A stretch of DNA of 64,000 nt, taken from Vreelandella zhuhanensis (GTDB taxonomy: Bacteria; Pseudomonadota; Gammaproteobacteria; Pseudomonadales; Halomonadaceae). A program made the translations under genes and the position numbers. The stretch is from NCBI RefSeq assembly GCF_009793355.1, contig NZ_WTKP01000002.1:62001-126000 (forward strand). Reading direction: 5' to 3'. A model generated the notes under the pieces. The model was given only the letters and a program-made list of their open reading frames with translations. It did not search any database and was not told the DNA's origin. This document shows positions 1 to 33,693 of the stretch, in pieces; within the stretch, counting starts at the first letter, position 1, and each line of letters begins with the position of its first letter.

Positions 1-156
1 CGGCAGGCTCAATGTCTGCGCCTGTACCGGCGCCACCATCAGTGCCGTGAAGATAAACAGCCCTAGCATTATCTTGGCTACGCTTGCCTTGAGCCCCGTC
101 TTGATTAATTCTGTTTTCAATAACATGATCTTGAATAACATCGCCTCGAATAACAT
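1..156 (-). CDS. Exported protein, N-terminal fragment (runs off the window)
   Basis: Only the first ~50 codons are in the window; the reading frame is open to base 1. From the third in-frame ATG (base 126) the product has a textbook signal peptide: a basic n-region (KTELIKTGLKASVAK), a hydrophobic core (IMLGLFIFTALMVAP) and a VQA|QT cleavage site, so the mature protein is exported. Three in-frame ATGs at 156, 141 and 126 lie in near-identical 15-base units (MLFEA, MLFKI, MLLKT), so the true start is uncertain. A weak AAGAAAG precedes 156. The gene is divergent from the amidoligase pair. Nothing of the mature domain is visible, so no function can be given. Confidence 0.6.
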   Translation of the reverse strand, partial: MLFEAMLFKIMLLKTELIKTGLKASVAKIMLGLFIFTALMVAPVQAQTLSLP

Positions 157-294
157 CGTCTTTCTTGGCTGCTGTATTACCTTGTGCTGTCGCACCTGCT
201 TCTCCTGGCTGGCAAGGGTGGCGGCCTGTGGCTAAGACCAACCGGGGGTATGATAGACTTAAGGTGATATTCGTTCACCTCACAGGATGCCGAG

Positions 295-1302
295 ATGACG
301 TTGCAAGCACCACCCGAACGGGATAATTTTGAAGGCCTGCCACGACATATCGGGGTGGAAATTGAATTTGCCGGTTTGCCGCCCCGGGACACCGCATTGA
401 TTATACGCGACCTCTTTGGTGGCGAGCTCAACGTCATCAGCCCTCACCGCCTTAACGTGGACGGCACGCGCTGGGGCAAGTTCGGTATCGAACTGGATAC
501 CCAGTACGCGCACCCGGACACGGCGGTGCTTGAAGAAAGCCCCCATCAAGATAGCGAGTGGGAACGTCAGCGTCACCAGATGCGGATCGAGTTTCACCAA
601 AAGACCCGTGAGCTTATCGGCGACATGGTCTCGGGTCTGGTGCCCACGGAAATCGTCTGCCCGCCTGTTCCCTGGAACGAACTGGAGGAGCTCGACAGCT
701 TATTCGATGCCTTGCGTGAACACGGCGCCAAGGGCACGGATGCCAGCCTACTCTATGGATTCGGCCTGCATTTGAACCCGGAAGTGGCCAGTCTGGAGGT
801 GGATGATATTCTGGCTCAGTTGCGCGCCTATTTACTGATGGCGGTCTGGTTACGTGAAGAAATCAAGGTAGATATCACCCGAGAAGTGCTGCCTCACGCT
901 AACCCCTTTCCCAAGGAATACGCGCTGAAAGTATTGAATAGCTCTTATACACCGGATCTCGATACCCTGATCGAGGATTACATCGCCTACAACCCCACAC
1001 GCAACCGCGAACTGGACATGTTCCCCCTGTTTGCCTACCTACGCCCGGAGCACCCTCACGAGTTGATGCAGAATAAATTGGTCAAACCGCGCCCCACCTT
1101 TCATTACCGCCTGCCCAATGCGCAACTTTCACAACCTGGCTGGGGTGCAGTCGTGGAATGGAATCGCTGGGTGGAAGTCGAGAAACTCGCTGCACGGCGC
1201 GACGTGCTCATGGCGCGTTGCAAAGAATACGTGGCCGACCATGCCCGCTCACCAGTGACACGCTGGCTGGAAAAAATCCGTCACTGGCTGAGAGAGGGAT
1301 AA
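295..1302 (+). CDS. Amidoligase family protein (COOH-NH2 ligase, glutamine-synthetase-like fold)
   Basis: 335 residues. The N-terminus carries GVEIEF (20-25), the metal-binding G-x-E-x-E signature of the amidoligase branch of the glutamine-synthetase/GCS superfamily. LYGFGLHLNP (153-162, His159) fits the second conserved active-site strand. Family members use ATP to form amide or peptide-like bonds; the substrate here is unknown. The stop is 7 bases before the start of a class I glutamine-amidotransferase-like hydrolase, a pairing known for this family and suggestive of a ligase/hydrolase couple acting on a gamma-glutamyl or similar conjugate. The ATG at 295 follows AGGA by about 8 bases; an earlier ATG at 287 stops at once. 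No signal peptide, so probably cytoplasmic. The family call is firm, the pathway is not. Confidence 0.8.
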   Translation: MTLQAPPERDNFEGLPRHIGVEIEFAGLPPRDTALIIRDLFGGELNVISPHRLNVDGTRWGKFGIELDTQYAHPDTAVLEESPHQDSEWERQRHQMRIEFHQKTRELIGDMVSGLVPTEIVCPPVPWNELEELDSLFDALREHGAKGTDASLLYGFGLHLNPEVASLEVDDILAQLRAYLLMAVWLREEIKVDITREVLPHANPFPKEYALKVLNSSYTPDLDTLIEDYIAYNPTRNRELDMFPLFAYLRPEHPHELMQNKLVKPRPTFHYRLPNAQLSQPGWGAVVEWNRWVEVEKLAARRDVLMARCKEYVADHARSPVTRWLEKIRHWLREG

Positions 1303-2886: not shown

Positions 2887-3606
2887 ATGGCGCAACTTCT
2901 CATCGTCAAGACCGGCAATGCCTTTCCCGAAGTCATCGATGCTCACGGCAACTTCGAGGCGCTATTCCAGCGACAGCTGGAAACCGCCCTGCCACCCGGC
3001 TTGACACTTCAGGTGTTCGACGCCCCACGCGAAAGCCCGCTACCTGAACTTTCTTCGCTCGCAGGGATCGTGATTACCGGCTCACATAGCATGGTAAGTG
3101 CGGCCGAGCCCTGGAGTGAAGCGCTCAAGCCTTGGCTTGTCGAGGCACTTGAACGTGATATCCCCATGCTCGGGGTATGTTACGGCCATCAACTGATGGC
3201 ATCGGCATTCGGCGGGGTCAGTGATTATCATCCAGCCGGGCGCGAATCCGGCACACGCCAGGTGACGCTCAATGAATACGCACAAGGCGACCCCTTGTTG
3301 GGTGAATTGCCCCAGCAGTTTCACGCACATCTGACCCACGCTCAATCGGTATTGAGGCCGCCTGAAAATACTCGAATACTCGCTGGAAACAAGCATGACC
3401 CCTACCAAGCGCTGCGTTATGGTCCGCACCAGTGGAGCGTACAATTTCACCCTGAGTTCACCGTACCGGTGATGCATGCTTACCTGGAACGCCAACGTAG
3501 CGCCTTGCGTGAACAAGGCGAAGACCCGCAGGTGTTGATGGATGCCGTCAGACCCACTCCGGAAGCCACCGCCTTGCTCCCACGGTTTGTTTCGCTATTG
3601 GGTTAA
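2887..3606 (+). CDS. Glutamine amidotransferase class I domain protein
   Basis: 239 residues made of a single GATase1 domain. Oxyanion strand ITGSHSMV near residue 61, nucleophile MLGVCYGHQL (Cys98) and QFHPEF (His188, Glu190) are all present. It resembles the stand-alone GMP-synthase-like amidotransferases (YfeJ type), which lack a synthetase domain and whose physiological partner is generally unknown. The start ATG is preceded by CTGGAG about 10 bases upstream. It ends in front of a strong bidirectional hairpin terminator. Not part of the upstream amidoligase unit because nfi lies between on the other strand. Confidence 0.8.
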   Translation: MAQLLIVKTGNAFPEVIDAHGNFEALFQRQLETALPPGLTLQVFDAPRESPLPELSSLAGIVITGSHSMVSAAEPWSEALKPWLVEALERDIPMLGVCYGHQLMASAFGGVSDYHPAGRESGTRQVTLNEYAQGDPLLGELPQQFHAHLTHAQSVLRPPENTRILAGNKHDPYQALRYGPHQWSVQFHPEFTVPVMHAYLERQRSALREQGEDPQVLMDAVRPTPEATALLPRFVSLLG

Positions 3607-26404: not shown

Positions 26405-27397
26405 TTAATCTTCATCGCTGGGTAAATGGTGGGTTGGCTTTTGCCAGGGATGCATGGGTCCCAGCGTATCTGCTGCATGGGCTTTTCTTTCCCCCATCGG
26501 ACGCGGCTCACCGACCGTGGTATCCAGCCGGGTCTGGCGCTCCATCTGGCAGTTGATTTCCGCGCCCAACAATATGACGAAGGCCGAAAGCCAGAACCAC
26601 AACATCAATACCACTACCGCCCCTAACGAGCCGTAGAGCTCGCTGAAATTGGCAAAATAGCGCACATACAAGGAGAGCCCACCGGAGCCAAGCAACCACA
26701 ATCCCGTGGCGACCAAGGTTCCCACGCTCAGCCATTGCCAGCGTGGCGCGCGCCGGTAAGGAGCGAAGCGATACAGTAGTGCAATCAGGACACTCATAAG
26801 CACTAGCAGCGGCGGCCAGCGCAACCAACCCACGATTCGATCATAGGGGCTATGTATTCCCAGTATATTGACCACCAGCGGGAACAGGGCGATAAACCCC
26901 AGGGTGAGCAGGGTAATGCCGAGCAAGCCGAATGTCAGGGCGGCCACTACCAGGATGCGCTTGGTTAACCCGCGTTTTTCTACCTGCCCATAAACGACAT
27001 TAAGCCCCACGACAAGTCCGGTGACGCCCTTGGAAGCCACAAAAATGGCTAATACCGTGCCCAAGGCTGCCGTGATACCCGGCCCTGTATCGATTTCCTC
27101 GATAAGCTTCTGCGCTTGTTCGTCGATCAAGGTGGCCGCATTCGGCGGCATCAGACGGCTGAGCTCATTGAGTTGGCGAATGATGTCGTAAGGATCGAAC
27201 AGCAACCCCCATAGCGAAATCATTGCGGCAATCGCGGGAAATATCGCCAGCAAGGCGTAAAACGCCACACCGGCCGCCAGCATGGTGATGCGATGAGCTT
27301 CCATCTGCTGCTTGACCCGCCAGGCGATATCCAGCCAGCCTTTTACCGGAATGTCACAGGGCACTTCGGCCTCACGACCACGTAACCGCTCGCTCAT
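26405..27397 (-). CDS. YihY/virulence factor BrkB family membrane protein
   Basis: 330 residues, six membrane helices (for example ITMLAAGVAFYALLAIFPAIAAM, then LVVGLNVVYGQVEKRGL...KRILVVAALTFGLLG). The AGVAFYALLAIFPA and NVVYGQ blocks define the YihY/BrkB family, once called RNase BN in error. Biological role unclear; some members are linked to envelope or lipid functions. Last gene of the minus-strand run, 58 bases after the antiporter module, so it may be cotranscribed with it. Confidence 0.88.
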   Translation of the reverse strand: MSERLRGREAEVPCDIPVKGWLDIAWRVKQQMEAHRITMLAAGVAFYALLAIFPAIAAMISLWGLLFDPYDIIRQLNELSRLMPPNAATLIDEQAQKLIEEIDTGPGITAALGTVLAIFVASKGVTGLVVGLNVVYGQVEKRGLTKRILVVAALTFGLLGITLLTLGFIALFPLVVNILGIHSPYDRIVGWLRWPPLLVLMSVLIALLYRFAPYRRAPRWQWLSVGTLVATGLWLLGSGGLSLYVRYFANFSELYGSLGAVVVLMLWFWLSAFVILLGAEINCQMERQTRLDTTVGEPRPMGERKAHAADTLGPMHPWQKPTHHLPSDED

Positions 27398-27455: not shown

Positions 27456-29267
27456 TCACGACGGAATATTCTCCCATGCTAGCAGTGCCACCAATCCCAC
27501 CGCGAGCGCCATCATCAAGCCACTGGCATGGCGGCGCATCCAGGCGTCGCTGGCGAGGAGCTGTTCCAGGCGCTTCATCAGCAGGGTTTCCATCGCCAAT
27601 GCGCGCGTCACTATGGAGGCCTTGGTGATGAACAAGCGGTGCACCATGGCACCATAGACGTTGGCGCCGGCACGCCCGAGTGCGGCGTATAGCCACCAGA
27701 GATCACCGGTCGGTACGATAAAAGGCCTTGGCGTCCATAACGTCAACACCAGCCCGGCGGCTAATACTCCCAAGGGGAGTGGCCAGACCAGTCCCGGCCA
27801 TTCAGCGAAGGGAGGAAACGGCATGGACTCCGCCGGTAGCGGTAACCAGACAGGCGTAATCAGCGCCAGCCCCAAGGTTGCCAGCCAAGCATAAAGCTGC
27901 CAGCCATTTCCCTTGCCGACCTGACGCTGCTGCCATTGGCGCCACAACGCCACGCTCACTAGCGCGGCGGTGCCTATCGCTGCCAGCGACAAGAGCCATA
28001 TCAAGGTGGTTTGTTCATTGTCGTACAATGCCGACTTGAACCCCCATTTGGATACCATTCCTGCTCCCAGCGTGCCTGCCAGCGAAAGCCCGGGAAGCGC
28101 CAGCAACGCCCACATCAGCGTCAGTGGCCAAGCCGGTAGATGCTCACTGATGCTGGTGCCCATGAACAGCGCCCCCTTGGCGAGGGCATGATGAGCGACG
28201 AACAATACCAGCGCCGGCCAGACCAGGTGCCAGTTGTCGGGTGCTGTCAGGCCGGTGGCCACCAGAGTGGTCATCATGCCCATTTGACTGATACTCGAAT
28301 AGGCCAGCACCGCCTTGGGATGACGCTGCATCACGCCGTATATCGCCGCCCCGAAAGCCGCCAGCAACCCGACGACCATGATCAGCTGACCAAGACGCAA
28401 GAATCCTTCGCTGAGCAAAGAATTACCTAACGGCAAGACGTTGAGCCAGCCCAGCAAACCCGCCTTGATCATGGCCCCGCTCAAGACGGCACTGGCAGGC
28501 GCCGGTGCCACCGGGTGCGCCAAAGGCAACCATACATGCAGGCCGATCACCCCGGCCTTGATGCCAAATCCACCCCACAGCAGCGCCGCTATGGCCACCC
28601 CATGCGGGGCTTGGGCAATCCCTTCACGCAGCCCTTCCAGGGTGAGTACCTGCGCCTCCCCCGCCACCCATAGGAAGCCCCCGAGCACCATGCCTTCGCC
28701 GAGCACCGCCATGATCAAATAAACATGGGCACCCAAAACCGCTCGCTGCGACTCGTCATGTATCACCAGGGCGTAGGCGGCAAAAGTCATCAGCGAAAAG
28801 CCAAGATAGAAACTGGCAATATCCTGAGCGACGATCAAAAGAATATTGCCCGTCAACGTCAATGGCCATAACACGGCAAGGCGCAACAGGCGCCGTCTTG
28901 CGGCGGTATCTCCAGCATTTGCCTCGGCCTGCTCATGGGCGAAATAGCCTCGGGCATGCAAGGCCGCCAAGGCCCAGAGCAAGGCAGTGAACATCAACCA
29001 CGCTCGGCTCAGGGCTGTAAGTTCCCATTGCCCACCGAGTATCCAGCCATCCAGTATCCATTGACCATTACCTACTAGCACTAACCCCAATGCCGGCCAG
29101 GCGGCGCTCAGCCACCAACCGTTCAAGTACTGCACCACCCCCTGATCGCCTGCAGCAACATGGCGCCACATCACCTTAATGGACAGCAATAACGGCCAGA
29201 GCAAAGCCAGGCCCAGCAGACTGTTGAACCAGAGCGCACTGGAGGTAAGTGTATCGGGCAGCATCAT
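27456..29267 (-). CDS. Antiporter-like subunit of complex-I/Mrp type (third large subunit)
   Basis: 603 residues, about 14-16 membrane helices; NuoL/M/N-MrpA/D superfamily (Proton_antipo_M). The TM7 lysine is in GFGIKAGVIGLHVWLP, the TM8 lysine in AVLSGAMIKAGLLGW and the TM12 lysine in AHHALAKGALFM. The glutamate normally found in TM5 (as in FYLGxELM) is Ser: YLGFSLMTFAAYA. It starts by an ATGA overlap with the stop of the preceding antiporter-like gene. Long C-terminal tail ends in one further helix. Likely carries ions across the inner membrane as part of a four-gene complex; the missing TM5 Glu argues that this copy's proton path is altered. Confidence 0.85.
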   Translation of the reverse strand: MMLPDTLTSSALWFNSLLGLALLWPLLLSIKVMWRHVAAGDQGVVQYLNGWWLSAAWPALGLVLVGNGQWILDGWILGGQWELTALSRAWLMFTALLWALAALHARGYFAHEQAEANAGDTAARRRLLRLAVLWPLTLTGNILLIVAQDIASFYLGFSLMTFAAYALVIHDESQRAVLGAHVYLIMAVLGEGMVLGGFLWVAGEAQVLTLEGLREGIAQAPHGVAIAALLWGGFGIKAGVIGLHVWLPLAHPVAPAPASAVLSGAMIKAGLLGWLNVLPLGNSLLSEGFLRLGQLIMVVGLLAAFGAAIYGVMQRHPKAVLAYSSISQMGMMTTLVATGLTAPDNWHLVWPALVLFVAHHALAKGALFMGTSISEHLPAWPLTLMWALLALPGLSLAGTLGAGMVSKWGFKSALYDNEQTTLIWLLSLAAIGTAALVSVALWRQWQQRQVGKGNGWQLYAWLATLGLALITPVWLPLPAESMPFPPFAEWPGLVWPLPLGVLAAGLVLTLWTPRPFIVPTGDLWWLYAALGRAGANVYGAMVHRLFITKASIVTRALAMETLLMKRLEQLLASDAWMRRHASGLMMALAVGLVALLAWENIPS

Positions 29268-30772
29268 GGCAGGTAGTCTCCCAATGCGACTGCAGTAGCC
29301 CAGCCCAAGGGGCTGAACGGCATGGCGGCAAACAGCCCCGCACCCAGGCTGAGCAAGGCGGTGGCAACCATCGGCCATAACAGCCAGGCACTGGTTTCCA
29401 TATGCCCCAGGCGTCGTTCTTCGGGCCAGGCGCCGTGACCATGAGCCGGGCCCAGGCGAAACCACAAACGATATAGAATAGGCAGAAAATACATCGCATT
29501 GAGCATACTAACCGCCACCAGCACCACGATTACCCAGGGCATACCCGCCTGCACGGCCCCCATGCCCAGATACCATTTAGTGATAAAACCGGCTACCGGT
29601 GGCAAGCCGATCATCCCCAGAGCACCTACGGTAAACGCCAGGCTGGTCAAGGGCATGCGGCGCCCGGCACCGTTAAGCTCATCAATGCGATGAATCCCCA
29701 GCTCTTCGGCGTAGTTGCCGGCGCAGAAGAACAAGGTGACTTTCATAAGGCCCTGGTGAAGCAGATGAGTCAGTGCCGCAATGGTGCCAAAGGGGCCGAA
29801 CAAGCTGATTCCCAGCACAATGTATGAAACCTGGCTGATGGTGGAGAAAGCCAGGCGCGACTTGAGCTCCTCCTGAGCCAGCGCCCGAAGCGAGCCGTAG
29901 ACAATGGTGATCGAGGCCGCCACAGCCAATACGGTGGTCATACCCAGTTCCACGCTGAGCTCGATGCCGAAAACATCATAGACAACGCGTAATATCCCAA
30001 AGGCGCCGGCCTTGACCACCGCCACCGCATGCAGCAGTGCACTGACCGGCGCCGGGGCAACCATCGCACGAGGCAACCAGCCATGCACCGGCACCATGGC
30101 CGCCTTGACCGCCAACCCACCGACCAGTAGCGCAAAGATCAGCAGCAACAAGCCGCGGTAGTCGGGCAGAAAGACTTCAAGGCCGCTGCCTTCCAAGGCG
30201 AAAGAGTGCTCACCGGCCAGGCTATACAACAGCACCACACCAAGCAGTAATACCGTGCCTCCTGCCAAGGTATAACGCAGATAAACGCGCCCGGCATCCA
30301 ATGCCTTCGGCGTACCGCGATGCACCACCAAGGGGTAGGTAGATAAGGTCAGCATTTCGTAAAAAATCAGGAAGGTGAAGAGATTGCCCGCCAGCGCAAT
30401 GCCTAAGGTGCTGCCCACGCACAGGCTAAAAAAACCAAAAAAACGCTTCCGGTTGGGTGAGCCCTCCAAATAGCCGATGGCATAGAGAGTGGTGCACAAC
30501 CACAGCAATGACGAAAGTCCCGCAAACATCATGCCCAAGGCATCGGCGCGCAAGACGAAGTCGATGCCTTCCACTACCGGAAAACGAAACGTATCGCGAT
30601 GCCCCTCTACTACGCGGTACCCCAACAGCACCACCAGTGTCAGCTTGACCAGCGCCGCCCCCAGATTAACGCCGGTACGCCAACGCCAAGCGTTTTCCGG
30701 CAGCGCAAAGATAACCACCGCTGCCAACAGAGAAGTGGACAACGCCATTGGCGGCAACCAGGCCGCGTTCAT
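29264..30772 (-). CDS. Antiporter-like subunit of complex-I/Mrp type (second large subunit)
   Basis: 502 residues, about 14 membrane helices. All ion-path residues of the superfamily are present: TM5 Glu in FLIFYEMLTLSTYPLV, TM7 Lys in GGLAVKAAMVPVHGWLPRA, TM8 Lys in LLHAVAVVKAGAFGILR and TM12 His/Lys in LLHQGLMKVTLFFCAG. The GWLPRAMVAPAPVSALLHA stretch is closest to MrpD/HyfB/NuoM-like proteins. ATGA overlaps on both sides couple it to its neighbours. Part of the module 27456-32957. Confidence 0.88.
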   Translation of the reverse strand: MNAAWLPPMALSTSLLAAVVIFALPENAWRWRTGVNLGAALVKLTLVVLLGYRVVEGHRDTFRFPVVEGIDFVLRADALGMMFAGLSSLLWLCTTLYAIGYLEGSPNRKRFFGFFSLCVGSTLGIALAGNLFTFLIFYEMLTLSTYPLVVHRGTPKALDAGRVYLRYTLAGGTVLLLGVVLLYSLAGEHSFALEGSGLEVFLPDYRGLLLLIFALLVGGLAVKAAMVPVHGWLPRAMVAPAPVSALLHAVAVVKAGAFGILRVVYDVFGIELSVELGMTTVLAVAASITIVYGSLRALAQEELKSRLAFSTISQVSYIVLGISLFGPFGTIAALTHLLHQGLMKVTLFFCAGNYAEELGIHRIDELNGAGRRMPLTSLAFTVGALGMIGLPPVAGFITKWYLGMGAVQAGMPWVIVVLVAVSMLNAMYFLPILYRLWFRLGPAHGHGAWPEERRLGHMETSAWLLWPMVATALLSLGAGLFAAMPFSPLGWATAVALGDYLP

Positions 30773-32268
30773 CAGCGGTCCCCTTGCAGTAGATTCAAGG
30801 GGCCATAGGCAAACAGCCCTAGCAGCAAAGAAGCCAACGCCAGGCCGAGCGCCAAGCCATCCAGCCAAGGGGGCAAGGCACGAAACGCATAATGAGGAGA
30901 AGTTTCGACAAAGGAGTAGCGAAACACGCGAAACACATAGGCGGCGGAAAGCAAGGTGCCCAAGAGGAGCGCTGCCACCCAGGCCCACTGGGCCTGCATC
31001 ACCATTGCCCGCAACAATAACCACTTGGCGGTGAAGCCTGCGCTCGGGGGCAATCCGATCAAACTGACCGAGGCGACGCCGAAGGCCAGCAATGACAAGG
31101 GTAACTGACGACTGGCACCGACCAGGCCTTGCAGTGAAGTCTTCCCAGTGGCGAGTATCAGATTTCCGGCGGCCAGGAACATCGCCGCCTTGGCCAGGGC
31201 ATGGCCTACCAGATACAGCCAGAACCCTTGCCAGGCCAACACCTGCACCGATGCCGAGATGCCGGGGCCCAGCAACAGGGGAAACACCACCATCAAATAC
31301 CCCATCTGAGCGACCGTGGAATATGCCACCAAGGACTTCAATTCCACCGCACGCCAGGCCAGCCCGCCTCCCCAAAAAATGGCAATCACCCCGAGCCAGG
31401 CGACCAGCTGAGCGGCAAAGATGCTGTCCGGGATCAACACGCTCCATAACTGCAACAGGATGAACAGTGACGCCTTGATCACCAGGGCGGCGTGCAAGGC
31501 ACTTACCGGCACCCAGGCATTGCCATGTACCGGGGCCAGCCAGGCATGCAACGGAAACAAGGCCGCCTTGAGGGCCAGCCCCGCCCCCAACAACGCCGCA
31601 GCCGTCCAGGCCACCGGCCCCGCTTCCACCACTTGCACCAGACCGGCCAGGTCCAGCCTGTCCCAGTGGCCTAGAATCAACGCCACTCCCAATAAATACA
31701 TCAGCGAGCCGACCAACGCCAACAGCAAGTAGCGTATGCCGGCCACCAGCGCCTCCACCTTACCCGGCAGCAACAACATGGCGACGGCACTCAACCCCAT
31801 CAGTTCCAGAGCGACATAGAGGGTGAGCAGATCCGCTGCCACCCAGATCAGCGAAAGCGAACTGATCAGTATCCCTAGCAGCGGCCACAGCCAGCGCTCC
31901 AGGCTGCGTTGCGCTGGGTCAGCGTGGCGCAATTCACCCGGTGTATAGAGTGCCGCTACCAGCCCCAACCCTTGGGTGAGCAACAACAGCAAGACACTCA
32001 GGCCATTCAGGCGCAACTGTACGGTCAGCTTGCCCCATTCCAGTTGCCAACGCTGCAAGCCGTACTGCTCGACTATCATCAACAGCACGATGCCGCTGGC
32101 CACCAGAGGCAGCCCAGCCAGCAAGATAGGCCAGGTACGTTGAGGGCGCAGCCAGGCACCCAGCACACCCAAGAGACAAGGCAGGCACAGAGCCACCCAA
32201 AGCGCCGGGTAGGTGAGAGGCAATACCATCTGTGAGCTTTCGACCAGGCCGAAGCGCATGCTCATCAT
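30772..32268 (-). CDS. Antiporter-like subunit of complex-I/Mrp type (first large subunit)
   Basis: 498 residues, about 14 membrane helices, NuoN/MrpD-like. TM5 Glu in LLTLYVALELMGLSAVAM, TM7 Lys in GLALKAALFPLHAWLAP, TM8 Lys in SALHAALVIKASLFIL and TM12 Lys in LVGHALAKAAMFLAAGN. HGNAWVPVSALHA replaces the more common H-x-x-APxxVSALL, a small departure. Its start overlaps the end of the small fused subunit and its stop overlaps the next gene's ATG. Confidence 0.87.
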   Translation of the reverse strand: MMSMRFGLVESSQMVLPLTYPALWVALCLPCLLGVLGAWLRPQRTWPILLAGLPLVASGIVLLMIVEQYGLQRWQLEWGKLTVQLRLNGLSVLLLLLTQGLGLVAALYTPGELRHADPAQRSLERWLWPLLGILISSLSLIWVAADLLTLYVALELMGLSAVAMLLLPGKVEALVAGIRYLLLALVGSLMYLLGVALILGHWDRLDLAGLVQVVEAGPVAWTAAALLGAGLALKAALFPLHAWLAPVHGNAWVPVSALHAALVIKASLFILLQLWSVLIPDSIFAAQLVAWLGVIAIFWGGGLAWRAVELKSLVAYSTVAQMGYLMVVFPLLLGPGISASVQVLAWQGFWLYLVGHALAKAAMFLAAGNLILATGKTSLQGLVGASRQLPLSLLAFGVASVSLIGLPPSAGFTAKWLLLRAMVMQAQWAWVAALLLGTLLSAAYVFRVFRYSFVETSPHYAFRALPPWLDGLALGLALASLLLGLFAYGPLNLLQGDR

Positions 32269-32957
32269 GGCCCTGATCGCTTTTGCCGGAGGCTTTCATT
32301 ATCGCTGATAAGCGCCTTGGCTCCCTGCAAGTGATACAAACGTCGTATCAGCATGGCACCCAGCAAGGTACCTAACCAGGCCACTCCCAACCCCGTGATG
32401 ATCAATGCCTGCGCCTGAGCCACGGTGCCCGTCAACCCCGCCAGCAACAGGAACACCCCGGAACCCAGCACATTGAATGCTAGCAACCGGCGCAACAAGT
32501 GCCGGTGCAAGGCGAACGCTCCAAGCCCGAGAGCGCTCATCGCCACCCCGGCCAGCAATAAAGGTTGTTGAATAGGTGAGTAAGCCATCACCGGTACGCT
32601 GTGTCTGAGAGCCGTACCAATCATGCCCATCCATGCCAGCGCCAGTACCGCGCGAATGGCAGCTTGTCGAAAGGGCTCGCGAAACCAGTCGCGCCGTGGA
32701 GGCAAGGGAGAACCGGGCGGAAGGATACCCAAGGCGTAAAACAGGCTGCAGCCGGTCAATCCAGCGCCCAGCGAAAATTCAGCAAGCGCCAACCAGGGTG
32801 CCCCAAGCTGCCACCAGGCAAGCGCCATGCTCAAAGCAAAACCGACAAACACAATGCAAGCACGTACCAGATGGCGATCAAACAGACAGCCTAGCGCCAA
32901 GGCGGTGAGCCCCAGCGCTAAAAGCAGGTCAAAAAGAGGCGGAGTGGCATTCATCAT
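32265..32957 (-). CDS. Small fused antiporter subunit (MbhD/MrpA-C-like plus MnhC/NuoK-like)
   Basis: 230 residues, six to seven membrane helices. N-half: LALGCLFDRHLVRACIVFVG then LAEFSLGAGLTGCSLFYALG, the DUF4040/MbhD pattern found in the MrpA C-terminus. C-half: LLAFNVLGSGVFLLLAG and AQALIITGLGVAWLGTLLGA, the MnhC/NuoK pattern (PQALVLTAIVI). A fusion of two normally separate small subunits is unusual. First of four overlapping genes; starts 3 bases after the esterase stop. Presumably the small membrane core around which the three large subunits pack. The assignment of each half rests on short motifs, so it is tentative. Confidence 0.65.
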   Translation of the reverse strand: MMNATPPLFDLLLALGLTALALGCLFDRHLVRACIVFVGFALSMALAWWQLGAPWLALAEFSLGAGLTGCSLFYALGILPPGSPLPPRRDWFREPFRQAAIRAVLALAWMGMIGTALRHSVPVMAYSPIQQPLLLAGVAMSALGLGAFALHRHLLRRLLAFNVLGSGVFLLLAGLTGTVAQAQALIITGLGVAWLGTLLGAMLIRRLYHLQGAKALISDNESLRQKRSGP

Positions 32958-32960
32958 GGC

Positions 32961-33626
32961 TCATGCAAGGCGTTCACTCAGCCAAGTGCCGATATCTTGC
33001 ACCTGTTGCGGGCACAAGGCATGCGCCATGGGGTAGCGGTGATAGTTCACCGTGTAATCCCAGGCCTTGAGCCGCTCATAGGCAGCCCGTCCCAAGGCTT
33101 CCTGCACCACCGGATCAAAGTTGCCGTGATGGATCTCTATGGGAATATGCCGGTTGGCATCGGCCAATTGAATACTGTCGGCGGTGGCAAAGTACGTCGA
33201 CAAGGCCAACAACCCACCCAGCGGCTGAGGAAAAGACAGCGCCACCTCGTAAGCCACCGCCCCTCCTTGAGAAAACCCCGCCATGATGATGCGTCGGCTA
33301 TCGATGCCCTGATCAATCTGCTCTTGCACCAAGCCCTTGATCCGCTCAGCAGAAGCCTGCAACTGCTTTTCATCCACTCGCCGATCCAGGTCCATGGACT
33401 GCAGGTCGTACCAGGCCGGCATTACCATCCCACCGTTGATCGTGACCGGCAAGCGTGGCGCATGCGGCATGATAAAGCGTACATTGGCCCCTTCCGGCAA
33501 TTTCAGCGCCGGCACCAGGGGTTCGAAATCATTACCGTCGGCACCCAGGCCGTGCAGAATAAACACACAGGCGTTGGCGGGCTGGCCGTTGCGCGGTTCA
33601 AGGATCAGTTCACCGGGGTTACTCAT
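32961..33626 (-). CDS. Carboxylesterase/phospholipase family alpha/beta hydrolase
   Basis: 221 residues from ATG 33626 (GGAAG upstream). Oxyanion block CVFILHGLGADGNDF, nucleophile elbow MAGFSQGGAVA (Ser), Asp in HHGNFDPVV and His in YPMAHALCP complete the triad. It resembles YpfH and Pseudomonas carboxylesterase II (EstB-like), which hydrolyse short-chain acyl esters. The stop is 3 bases before the antiporter module, so it is cotranscribed with it, though no functional link is known. Confidence 0.9.
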   Translation of the reverse strand: MSNPGELILEPRNGQPANACVFILHGLGADGNDFEPLVPALKLPEGANVRFIMPHAPRLPVTINGGMVMPAWYDLQSMDLDRRVDEKQLQASAERIKGLVQEQIDQGIDSRRIIMAGFSQGGAVAYEVALSFPQPLGGLLALSTYFATADSIQLADANRHIPIEIHHGNFDPVVQEALGRAAYERLKAWDYTVNYHRYPMAHALCPQQVQDIGTWLSERLA

Positions 33627-33693
33627 GGGTAGCTTCCACTTCAATCAAAAGCGATACCCTAGCGTAAAGCATCAATCACAGCGAGCGCCATTC

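Follow-up and report, generated by a model that had tools for sequence, protein, structure and literature searches.

The closest described relatives of the locus studied here are the Group 3-type Mrp antiporters, a group defined by the absence of MrpA and the presence of MrpD, sometimes in several copies (PMC8415708). An operon of this type, MrpEFGBCD1D2D3, is named in Verruconatronum alginivorum (PMC13274419). We analysed 64,000 nucleotides of the Vreelandella zhuhanensis genome (contig NZ_WTKP01000002.1, positions 62,001 to 126,000; the window), in which a module of four intact, tightly packed genes occupies positions 27456-32957 on the minus strand. The genes are ordered DC-D1-D2-D3, where DC is the name used here for a fused small subunit and D1, D2 and D3 are large antiporter-like subunits. 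By Pfam matches and phylogeny, the module has no MrpA and has MrpD-type subunits, which places it within the Group 3 definition, and in identity and origin it is very probably a reduced complex of the Mrp family. It shares the C-D1-D2-D3 order and the lack of MrpA with the published operons (Mnh/MrpEFGBCD1D2D3, PMC13274419; cf. MrpEFGBBCDD, PMC4287430), which were compared by description only. In the Group 3-type operons of relatives, D1, D2 and D3 are one-to-one orthologous with those of the module. Unlike these operons, the module contains no E, F, G or B, its MbhD is fused to C, and the MbhD aspartate and the MbhE site are lost.

The module differs from Mrp Groups 1 and 2 in having no MrpA fusion: MbhD lies on the small subunit, and the three large proteins are separate. 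Compared with any Mrp, it is without MrpE/F/G/B and the D-T-x-x-E motif of MbhE, and the MbhD glutamate is kept. The membrane arm of complex I (NuoJ, K, N, M, L) offers a similar set of folds, with three antiporter-like subunits and a long C-terminal helix on the terminal one, and complex I is described as having no sodium module, unlike Mrp and MBH (PMC7684303). However, the module lacks NuoH and the redox arm, and its sequence kinship is with Mrp. Set against the arm of energy-converting hydrogenases and MBS (MbhD, G, H; HyfB, D, F), the halves of DC are MbhD- and MbhG-like and D3 is closest to HyfB models, but hydrogenase genes do not adjoin the module and counterparts of MbhA, B, C and F are missing. 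DAB/MpsAB systems consist of one antiporter subunit and DabA; like the module, they have an antiporter-like protein without MrpEFG, and no DabA was found in the host genome. For Nt-Nha of Natranaerobius, a single MrpA/D-like antiporter set beside the module by description, antiport is reported without small Mrp subunits (PMC5703873), in one protein as opposed to a four-gene set.

The parent operon type is already known. For the layout without E, F, G and B and with MbhD fused to MrpC, we found no account in the open-licence literature, a scope outside which most subscription papers lie, and this form is apparently undescribed there. The original prediction, made from the letters of the window alone, had held that the layout is not that of a standard Mrp, NDH, hydrogenase or DAB system and that it could be a distinct system. 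The first part was borne out, and the layout is conserved in Halomonadaceae. The second part holds only with a qualification: the orthologues of the large subunits sit in larger Mrp operons of relatives, of a type already known.

The host draft genome (3.25 Mb, 23 contigs, 99.49% complete) encodes nine PF00361 proteins at E 0.001 or better, three in the module and six in three MrpA-type operons; since all nine are placed, no NuoL/M/N, HyfB or DabB was detected elsewhere in this genome. MrpE is present in three copies, all at the three MrpA-type operons. Neither NuoH (PF00146; control matched in 11 of 14) nor DabA (PF10070; controls matched in B. subtilis and H. volcanii) had a match in the host genome, and no complex I, energy-converting hydrogenase or DAB system to which the module might belong is therefore apparent. 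One host locus (L037, C17:172000-188000) contains two standard MrpA-type operons back to back in opposite directions.

Relationship to full Mrp operons

Seventeen larger operons from relatives were read, with the common order E-F-G-MbhD-B-C-D1-D2-D3. MbhD is a separate gene in nine of them and forms one open reading frame (ORF) with B in seven; B and C were identified in all 17, and each of E, F and G in 16 (for F, 13 plus three by another reference). The sequence of L036 begins within the operon, that of L068 stops after C, and no D3 was found in L081. A single open frame of ~1,080 amino acids (aa) encodes a D2-D3 fusion in three full operons (L033, L036, L070). Locus L034 (G001 C1:881000-898000) has E-F-G-(MbhD+B)-C followed by a 937-aa protein with two antiporter domains, and the same genome also carries a compact module.

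In a tree of 89 rows, which included the window and 10 of 37 compact loci, the compact D1, D2 and D3 each came out as a single clade (SH-aLRT 100), which lay within the full-operon sequences of the corresponding position. Separate trees, with nine compact loci and the window, gave the three clades again with supports of 100/100, 100/99 and 100/100. D1 grouped with MrpD rows at an SH-aLRT of 81, which is not strong. The full operons of genus g35, which belongs to the window's own family (L066, L067 and L068, the latter cut short), are closely related but unfused; in D3, L066 and L067 branch as sister to the compact form (90/98), a placement that D1 and D2 do not resolve.

Because orthologous D1-D3 lie directly downstream of mrpE/F/G/B/C in relatives, and such an operon is named in print, the module is a reduced derivative of a known Mrp type. 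The alignments and trees trace it to a full Group 3-type operon, from which E, F, G, B and the MbhE region were lost and in which MbhD was joined to MrpC. The fused DC with a tryptophan-type MbhD motif is a derived trait common to two genera. The original prediction had counted missing Mrp genes next to the module in related genomes as evidence against itself, and this applies by half: they do adjoin D1-D3 in more distant relatives, but no E, F, G or B was found near the module in the compact carriers.

A fragment of complex I (NuoJKLMN), left over after loss of the other genes of its operon, would have a similar subunit set and similar predicted folds, and no complex I was detected in the host genome. 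However, all three large subunits join Group 3 Mrp in the tree and not NuoL/M/N, taken from one E. coli genome, the Nuo and Hyf rows being long branches whose exact placement is unsafe. Moreover, the MbhD half of DC matches MbhD models, not Nuo ones, and we consider such a fragment extremely improbable.

An unfused arrangement was found in an Alcanivorax metagenome-assembled genome (L170:1019-11971, PNLU01000039.1), where a complete mrpABCDEFG is followed after a 14-base gap by a B-less MbhD-C-D1-D2-D3. Its MbhD has 80 aa with the tryptophan motif and is followed by a 102-aa C, then D1, D2 and D3. As this module is both unfused and B-less, loss of B does not require fusion. Matches to its C protein occur in 25 of 244 genomes of its order, itself included, and the next best is 47% identical. 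As to a common origin with the Halomonadaceae forms, the D1 proteins group together at 54/81, and the p values of the approximately unbiased test are 0.288 (D2) and 0.115 (D3).

Subunits, conserved residues and predicted folds

DC passed the Pfam threshold for MbhD (38 bits, cut-off 27.2), and its match to Oxidored_q2 (NuoK/MrpC) was below threshold (23.3 bits, cut-off 26.1). Profile matches were to MbsD and MbhD chains and, more weakly, to MbhG. When DC is aligned to MbhD, B and C of the full operons placed end to end, MbhD is seen to join C through ~50 residues with one helix, and the MbhE region and MrpB are missing from the compact form. The MbhD and MbhE counts below rest on 107 compact rows, which include some genomes twice and leave out L170, and on full rows without L036, whose contig begins inside B.

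The MbhD motif reads A-P-D-x-A-x-A-E in most rows. All 16 full rows have its aspartate, as do the MBH and MBS chains of the profile alignment; in the compact rows this position is tryptophan in 102/107, glycine in two, leucine in two and phenylalanine in one. The glutamate of the motif (Glu60 of DC) is kept in all 107 compact and all 16 full rows, and in the profile alignment it corresponds to E69 of MbhD, which Steiner and Sazanov equate with E706 of the sodium site of MrpA (PMC7419157). The MbhE motif D-T-x-x-E occurs in 16/16 uncut full B proteins (15 by pattern, L034 separately) and in the three MrpA proteins of the host genome, and the pattern [FY]R.[FYW]DT.[LMG]E was found in none of the 107 compact rows. 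By their spacing of four, the aspartate and glutamate of this motif would fit D792 and E796 of PMC7419157. The positions of Asp37 and His41 of MbhG are glycine and phenylalanine in both compact and full forms, which indicates that this substitution predates the reduction.

These residues bear on the possibility that MrpE/F/G/B are supplied in trans by standard Mrp operons, giving hybrid or supercomplex antiport with extra proton channels. The three MrpA-type operons with MrpE in the host genome would provide such parts, and the B-less module of Alcanivorax begins 14 bases past the mrpG of a complete operon. On the other hand, the parts that would make the contact are changed, with the MbhD aspartate replaced by tryptophan in nearly all compact rows and the MbhE region deleted, and the Alcanivorax MbhD also has the tryptophan; we consider supply in trans unlikely.

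The AlphaFold2 model of DC (pLDDT 88.4) contains seven long helices (residues 8-26, 30-50, 54-75, 96-120, 132-150, 154-176 and 180-215). In VIA comparisons, the model was aligned with 8e73_6M (Z 9.2, root-mean-square deviation (rmsd) 2.1, 111 aligned, residues 8..127) and 8e9g_J (3..127), which from chain letters and lengths we take to be NuoJ-type chains, and with 6khi_E (Z 7.1, rmsd 3.4, 93 aligned, residues 129..223) and 6z16_C (Z 6.3, rmsd 2.4, 89 aligned, residues 129..220), presumably NuoK/MrpC-type on the same grounds. Further matches were 4he8_D (Z 9.5, rmsd 2.8, 119 aligned, residues 6..183), 6hum_G (1..177), MbsD 6u8y_D (Z 7.4, rmsd 1.6, 79 aligned, residues 5..90) and MbhD 6cfw_D (Z 6.7, rmsd 1.7, 78 aligned, residues 5..89). 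VIA asks for a Z of ~13 for helical bundles, and all these matches are moderate, below that value. The ranges of the NuoJ-type matches suggest that the linker helix may occupy the position of the fourth NuoJ helix.

The residue alignment of the large subunits leaves out L034, and it has no D3 row for L068, whose contig stops past C, or for L081, in which D3 was not detected. In D1, the glutamate of transmembrane helix (TM) 5 and the lysines of TM7, TM8 and TM12 are present in 37/37 compact rows, 15/15 full rows and the window. The same Glu/Lys/Lys/Lys set of D2 is kept in the window and all readable rows (36 or 37 compact, the exceptions being an X and a gap; a single gap also occurs in the full rows). 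The D3 lysines are kept in 36/36 compact rows, and that of TM8 is alanine in 2/14 full rows. The TM5 glutamate of D3 is absent from 36/36 compact rows, 14/14 full rows and the window, where the residue is serine. Across the window and 50 other rows, full-subunit operons included, this position is alanine, serine, threonine or isoleucine. Loss of the D3 glutamate through reduction was rejected, as the full-operon D3 rows are without it as well.

Among the NCBIfam matches listed (best 25 of 74, 75 and 61 families for the large proteins), no model passed its cut-off. The best scores of D1 and D2 were to MrpD-type models (for D2, PRK07234.1-1 with 444.7 bits under a family cut-off of 718), and that of D3 was to PRK06521 (HyfB), also under the cut-off. 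The AlphaFold2 model of D3 has a pLDDT of 87.6, lower at 511-530 and 571-603, and its long C-terminal helix spans residues 524-599. Its best VIA match, chain L of E. coli complex I (7p61_L; Z 37.7, rmsd 5.1, 529 aligned, 14..595), includes this helix; Dietzia MrpA 7d3u_A was aligned over 15..546 (Z 36.7, rmsd 3.1, 495 aligned).

Locus, distribution and selection

The coordinates of the four genes and their neighbours are given in Table 1.

Table 1. Genes of the module and the genes adjoining it in the window
Feature	Position	Strand	Description
DC, fused small subunit	32265-32957	minus	230 aa; MbhD/NuoJ-like TM1-3, linker TM, MrpC/NuoK-like TM1-3
D1, antiporter-like subunit	30772-32268	minus	498 aa; Pfam; MrpD side of tree
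D2, antiporter-like subunit	29264-30772	minus	502 aa; Pfam; most conserved among D1-D3
D3, antiporter-like subunit	27456-29267	minus	603 aa; HyfB-like sequence, NuoL/MrpA-like predicted fold, long C-terminal helix
Carboxylesterase family (Abhydrolase_2), outside module	32961-33644	minus	Pfam; 3 bases upstream of DC
BrkB/YihY family membrane protein, outside module	26405-27397	minus	Pfam; 58 bases downstream of D3

The ORF coordinates agree with the original prediction of four minus-strand genes at this place, and its account of their content also held. The three large proteins are all above the Pfam Proton_antipo_M cut-off, and the small subunit consists of an MbhD/NuoJ-like and an MrpC/NuoK-like half. 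The overlaps of about four bases (ATGA) that it described are present at DC/D1 and D2/D3, but D1 and D2 overlap by one base (TGATG). Its further claim that MrpB/E/F/G, a Nuo hydrophilic arm, hydrogenase and DUF2309 are missing here can be extended, NuoH and DabA being undetected genome-wide: ORFs and Pfam gave no MrpE, MrpF, MrpG or MrpB gene in the module, and a scan of its neighbours in the window gave no Nuo redox genes or NiFe hydrogenase subunits. The esterase, the module and the BrkB/YihY gene all lie on one strand. Scans of the DNA gave one promoter-like site, with 5.1 expected, and 16 terminator-like sites, with 13.7 expected.

DC matches were found in 116 of 275 genomes of the same family: 63 of 82 in the window's genus, 43 in genus g29 (two of them weak, G118 and G160) and 10 in other genera, the last with one half only or with the halves apart. 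The DC frame is broken in G265 and G290 of the window's genus and in G099 and G153 of g29. Searches at the order and class level gave matches in 31/341 and 35/369 genomes, and the fused ones (five and two) were all in the window's genus; the few weak matches covering both halves lie in frames of ~340 to 410 aa or contain internal stops. In the weak two-half match that was read (G346, L079), MbhD and B share an ORF and C is encoded by the one that follows. Scanning of named genomes yielded 70 loci, 69 of them from Halomonas, Vreelandella, Billgrantia or Halovibrio variabilis and one from the Alcanivorax assembly. Judged by this locus, Vreelandella rituensis is the closest named relative, with 95% identity in DC, although records closest to the window may be missing from this comparison. 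The one match among plasmid records lies on a 1.8 Mb replicon of Halomonas sp. PA16-9, for which no genes are listed.

The order DC-D1-D2-D3 was found in 36 of the 37 compact loci read and in 62 of the 69 named loci, so that the gene order asked about in the original prediction is conserved in Halomonadaceae. In L065 the contig runs out in D3 and D2 is in two pieces; in L075, counted among the 36, D3 is in two pieces; the remaining named loci are truncated at contig ends or show ORFs that are missing, doubled or overlong. The search for MrpE/F/G/B beside 97 compact loci (69 named and 28 unnamed, with flanks to the contig limits and some genomes in both sets) gave only two chance matches, of 22 and 24 aa, and none is listed for nine further compact loci.

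In the window's genus the module usually lies in the frame transporter - esterase - module - BrkB - PhoH. Other genes separate the esterase from DC in the five g29 loci that were read, among the listed ORFs tryptophan synthase beta-like and prenyltransferase-like ones by eye, and BrkB is missing there. At one changed locus (L054, G007 C2:1284000-1301000), reading by eye places genes of biotin type upstream of the module and, directly downstream, a pair of histidine kinase and response regulator. Of the 19 congeneric genomes without a DC match, 12 were examined. The series esterase - BrkB - PhoH is present in ten of these, and in nine of the ten the esterase and BrkB are immediate neighbours; of the remaining two, one is without BrkB and one without a downstream landmark. 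In G255 (L096), a 90-aa ORF 54% identical to part of D3 lies between esterase and BrkB (3230-3502 in esterase orientation) and is a scar of module deletion. The four genes come and go as a unit and the neighbours stay. The esterase, citrate-type transporter, BrkB and PhoH genes were considered as conserved partners and rejected, as all recur as the local backbone.

Ratios of nonsynonymous to synonymous substitution rates (dN/dS, NG86 method) against the nearest relative, G269 (L098), were 0.117 for DC, 0.108 for D1, 0.081 for D2 and 0.151 for D3; against L040 they were 0.188, 0.219, 0.072 and 0.244, and dS was saturated against L039. These values place all four genes under purifying selection, D2 most, which is weaker than that on the neighbours: the esterase, BrkB and transporter genes gave 0.024-0.058 (L098) and 0.064-0.118 (L040).

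A functionless, decaying remnant of an Mrp operon would be in keeping with the loss of subunits, the weaker constraint, the 19 of 82 congeneric genomes without DC (5 of the 19 being less than 90% complete), the D3 piece in G255 and the broken frames in G265, G290, G099, G153, L065 and L075. Against decay stand dN/dS values of 0.08 to 0.15 on all four genes relative to the nearest relative and the full retention of the Glu/Lys set in D1 and, in all readable rows, in D2. The fused tryptophan-type subunit is moreover itself derived and common to two genera. Decay is therefore very improbable.

Possible mode of action and significance

Overall, we consider the best explanation, with a probability of about 0.5, to be that the module encodes a reduced Mrp-family complex, kept by selection as a four-gene unit, with an order like that of the complex I arm and acting as a lone proton-coupled cation exchanger. 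The subunits would line up as in the membrane arm of complex I, as fused J-K, D1, D2 and terminal D3, with the long helix of D3 tying the row together. In D1 and D2 the complete Glu/Lys set would provide a proton route; D3 is without the TM5 glutamate. Sequence and models together lead us to read the predicted arrangement as a probable convergence on the J-K-L-M-N arm of complex I.

Sodium uptake and storage in Mrp are placed largely on MrpE/F/G, MrpB and the C-terminal side of MrpA, and one cited model assigns sodium to MrpD instead (PMC7419157, PMC9568556). The coupling of protons to sodium is disputed, and the sodium-carrying subunits are argued mainly from structures and simulations (PMC7419157, PMC9568556). 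Since the MrpE/F/G/B module and the acidic site of MbhE are gone, sodium exchange by the route proposed for Mrp would not operate here, and with the proposed sodium module lost, ordinary Na+/H+ exchange of the Mrp kind is disfavoured. Tentatively, and at somewhat less than even odds, the module may work alone as a proton-coupled exchanger of Na+ or K+, through a shortened cation site formed by Glu60 of DC and the TM5 glutamate of D1 at the J-K/D1 end. This mechanism is preferred because no partner gene travels with the module. It is possible, but doubtful, that the module is instead a redox-free, sodium-free P-module, a pure proton device, built of three antiporter-like subunits on a fused J-K connector, that energises another process and repeats independently the sodium-module loss inferred for the path to complex I.

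Several points weigh against a lone exchanger of Mrp descent. The Bacillus MrpABCD subcomplex without E, F and G is reported to be inactive (PMC5703873), so that a natural EFG-less complex may likewise be inactive as an antiporter. With the MbhD aspartate, MrpB and the MbhE acids gone, a residual cation site is speculative. Support values for the nesting from which the direction of change is read run from 81 to 98, and the Alcanivorax arrangement also fits co-operation with a standard Mrp. The Z values of DC lie below ~13, with the designed repeat protein 5cwo_A (Z 8.6) among its matches, and Foldseek found nothing in the PDB for this model at E 0.001 or better, the NuoJ- and NuoK-type halves emerging only in the VIA comparison. 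The stronger constraint on the neighbouring genes counts on the same side.

The module may also be a proton-conducting arm in which the proton-motive force drives an unlinked partner at the J-K end, as is thought for DabB/DabA, or as in the redox coupling of complex I. The sodium module is lost, yet D1 and D2 keep their proton residues and the connection through J-K is retained, and the VIA matches of DC and D3 point to an arm of the same kind as that of complex I. In addition, removal of MbhABC from the P. furiosus MBH reduced sodium-dependent H2 production and left hydrogenase activity unchanged (PMC8415708). However, the flanking genes persist where the module is absent and differ between genera g1 and g29, and no DabA or NuoH was found in the host genome; such a partner-driving role seems rather unlikely.

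About one hundred of the genomes searched carry the module. To judge from the best NCBIfam matches listed, annotations of its genes will probably borrow the names of MrpD, Nuo or HyfB. A natural complex with three antiporter-like subunits, but without MrpE/F/G/B and the acids of MbhE, is a ready-made test of what those parts do. In a separate lineage, and without a redox arm, the module repeats the absence of a sodium module that is described for complex I (PMC7684303).

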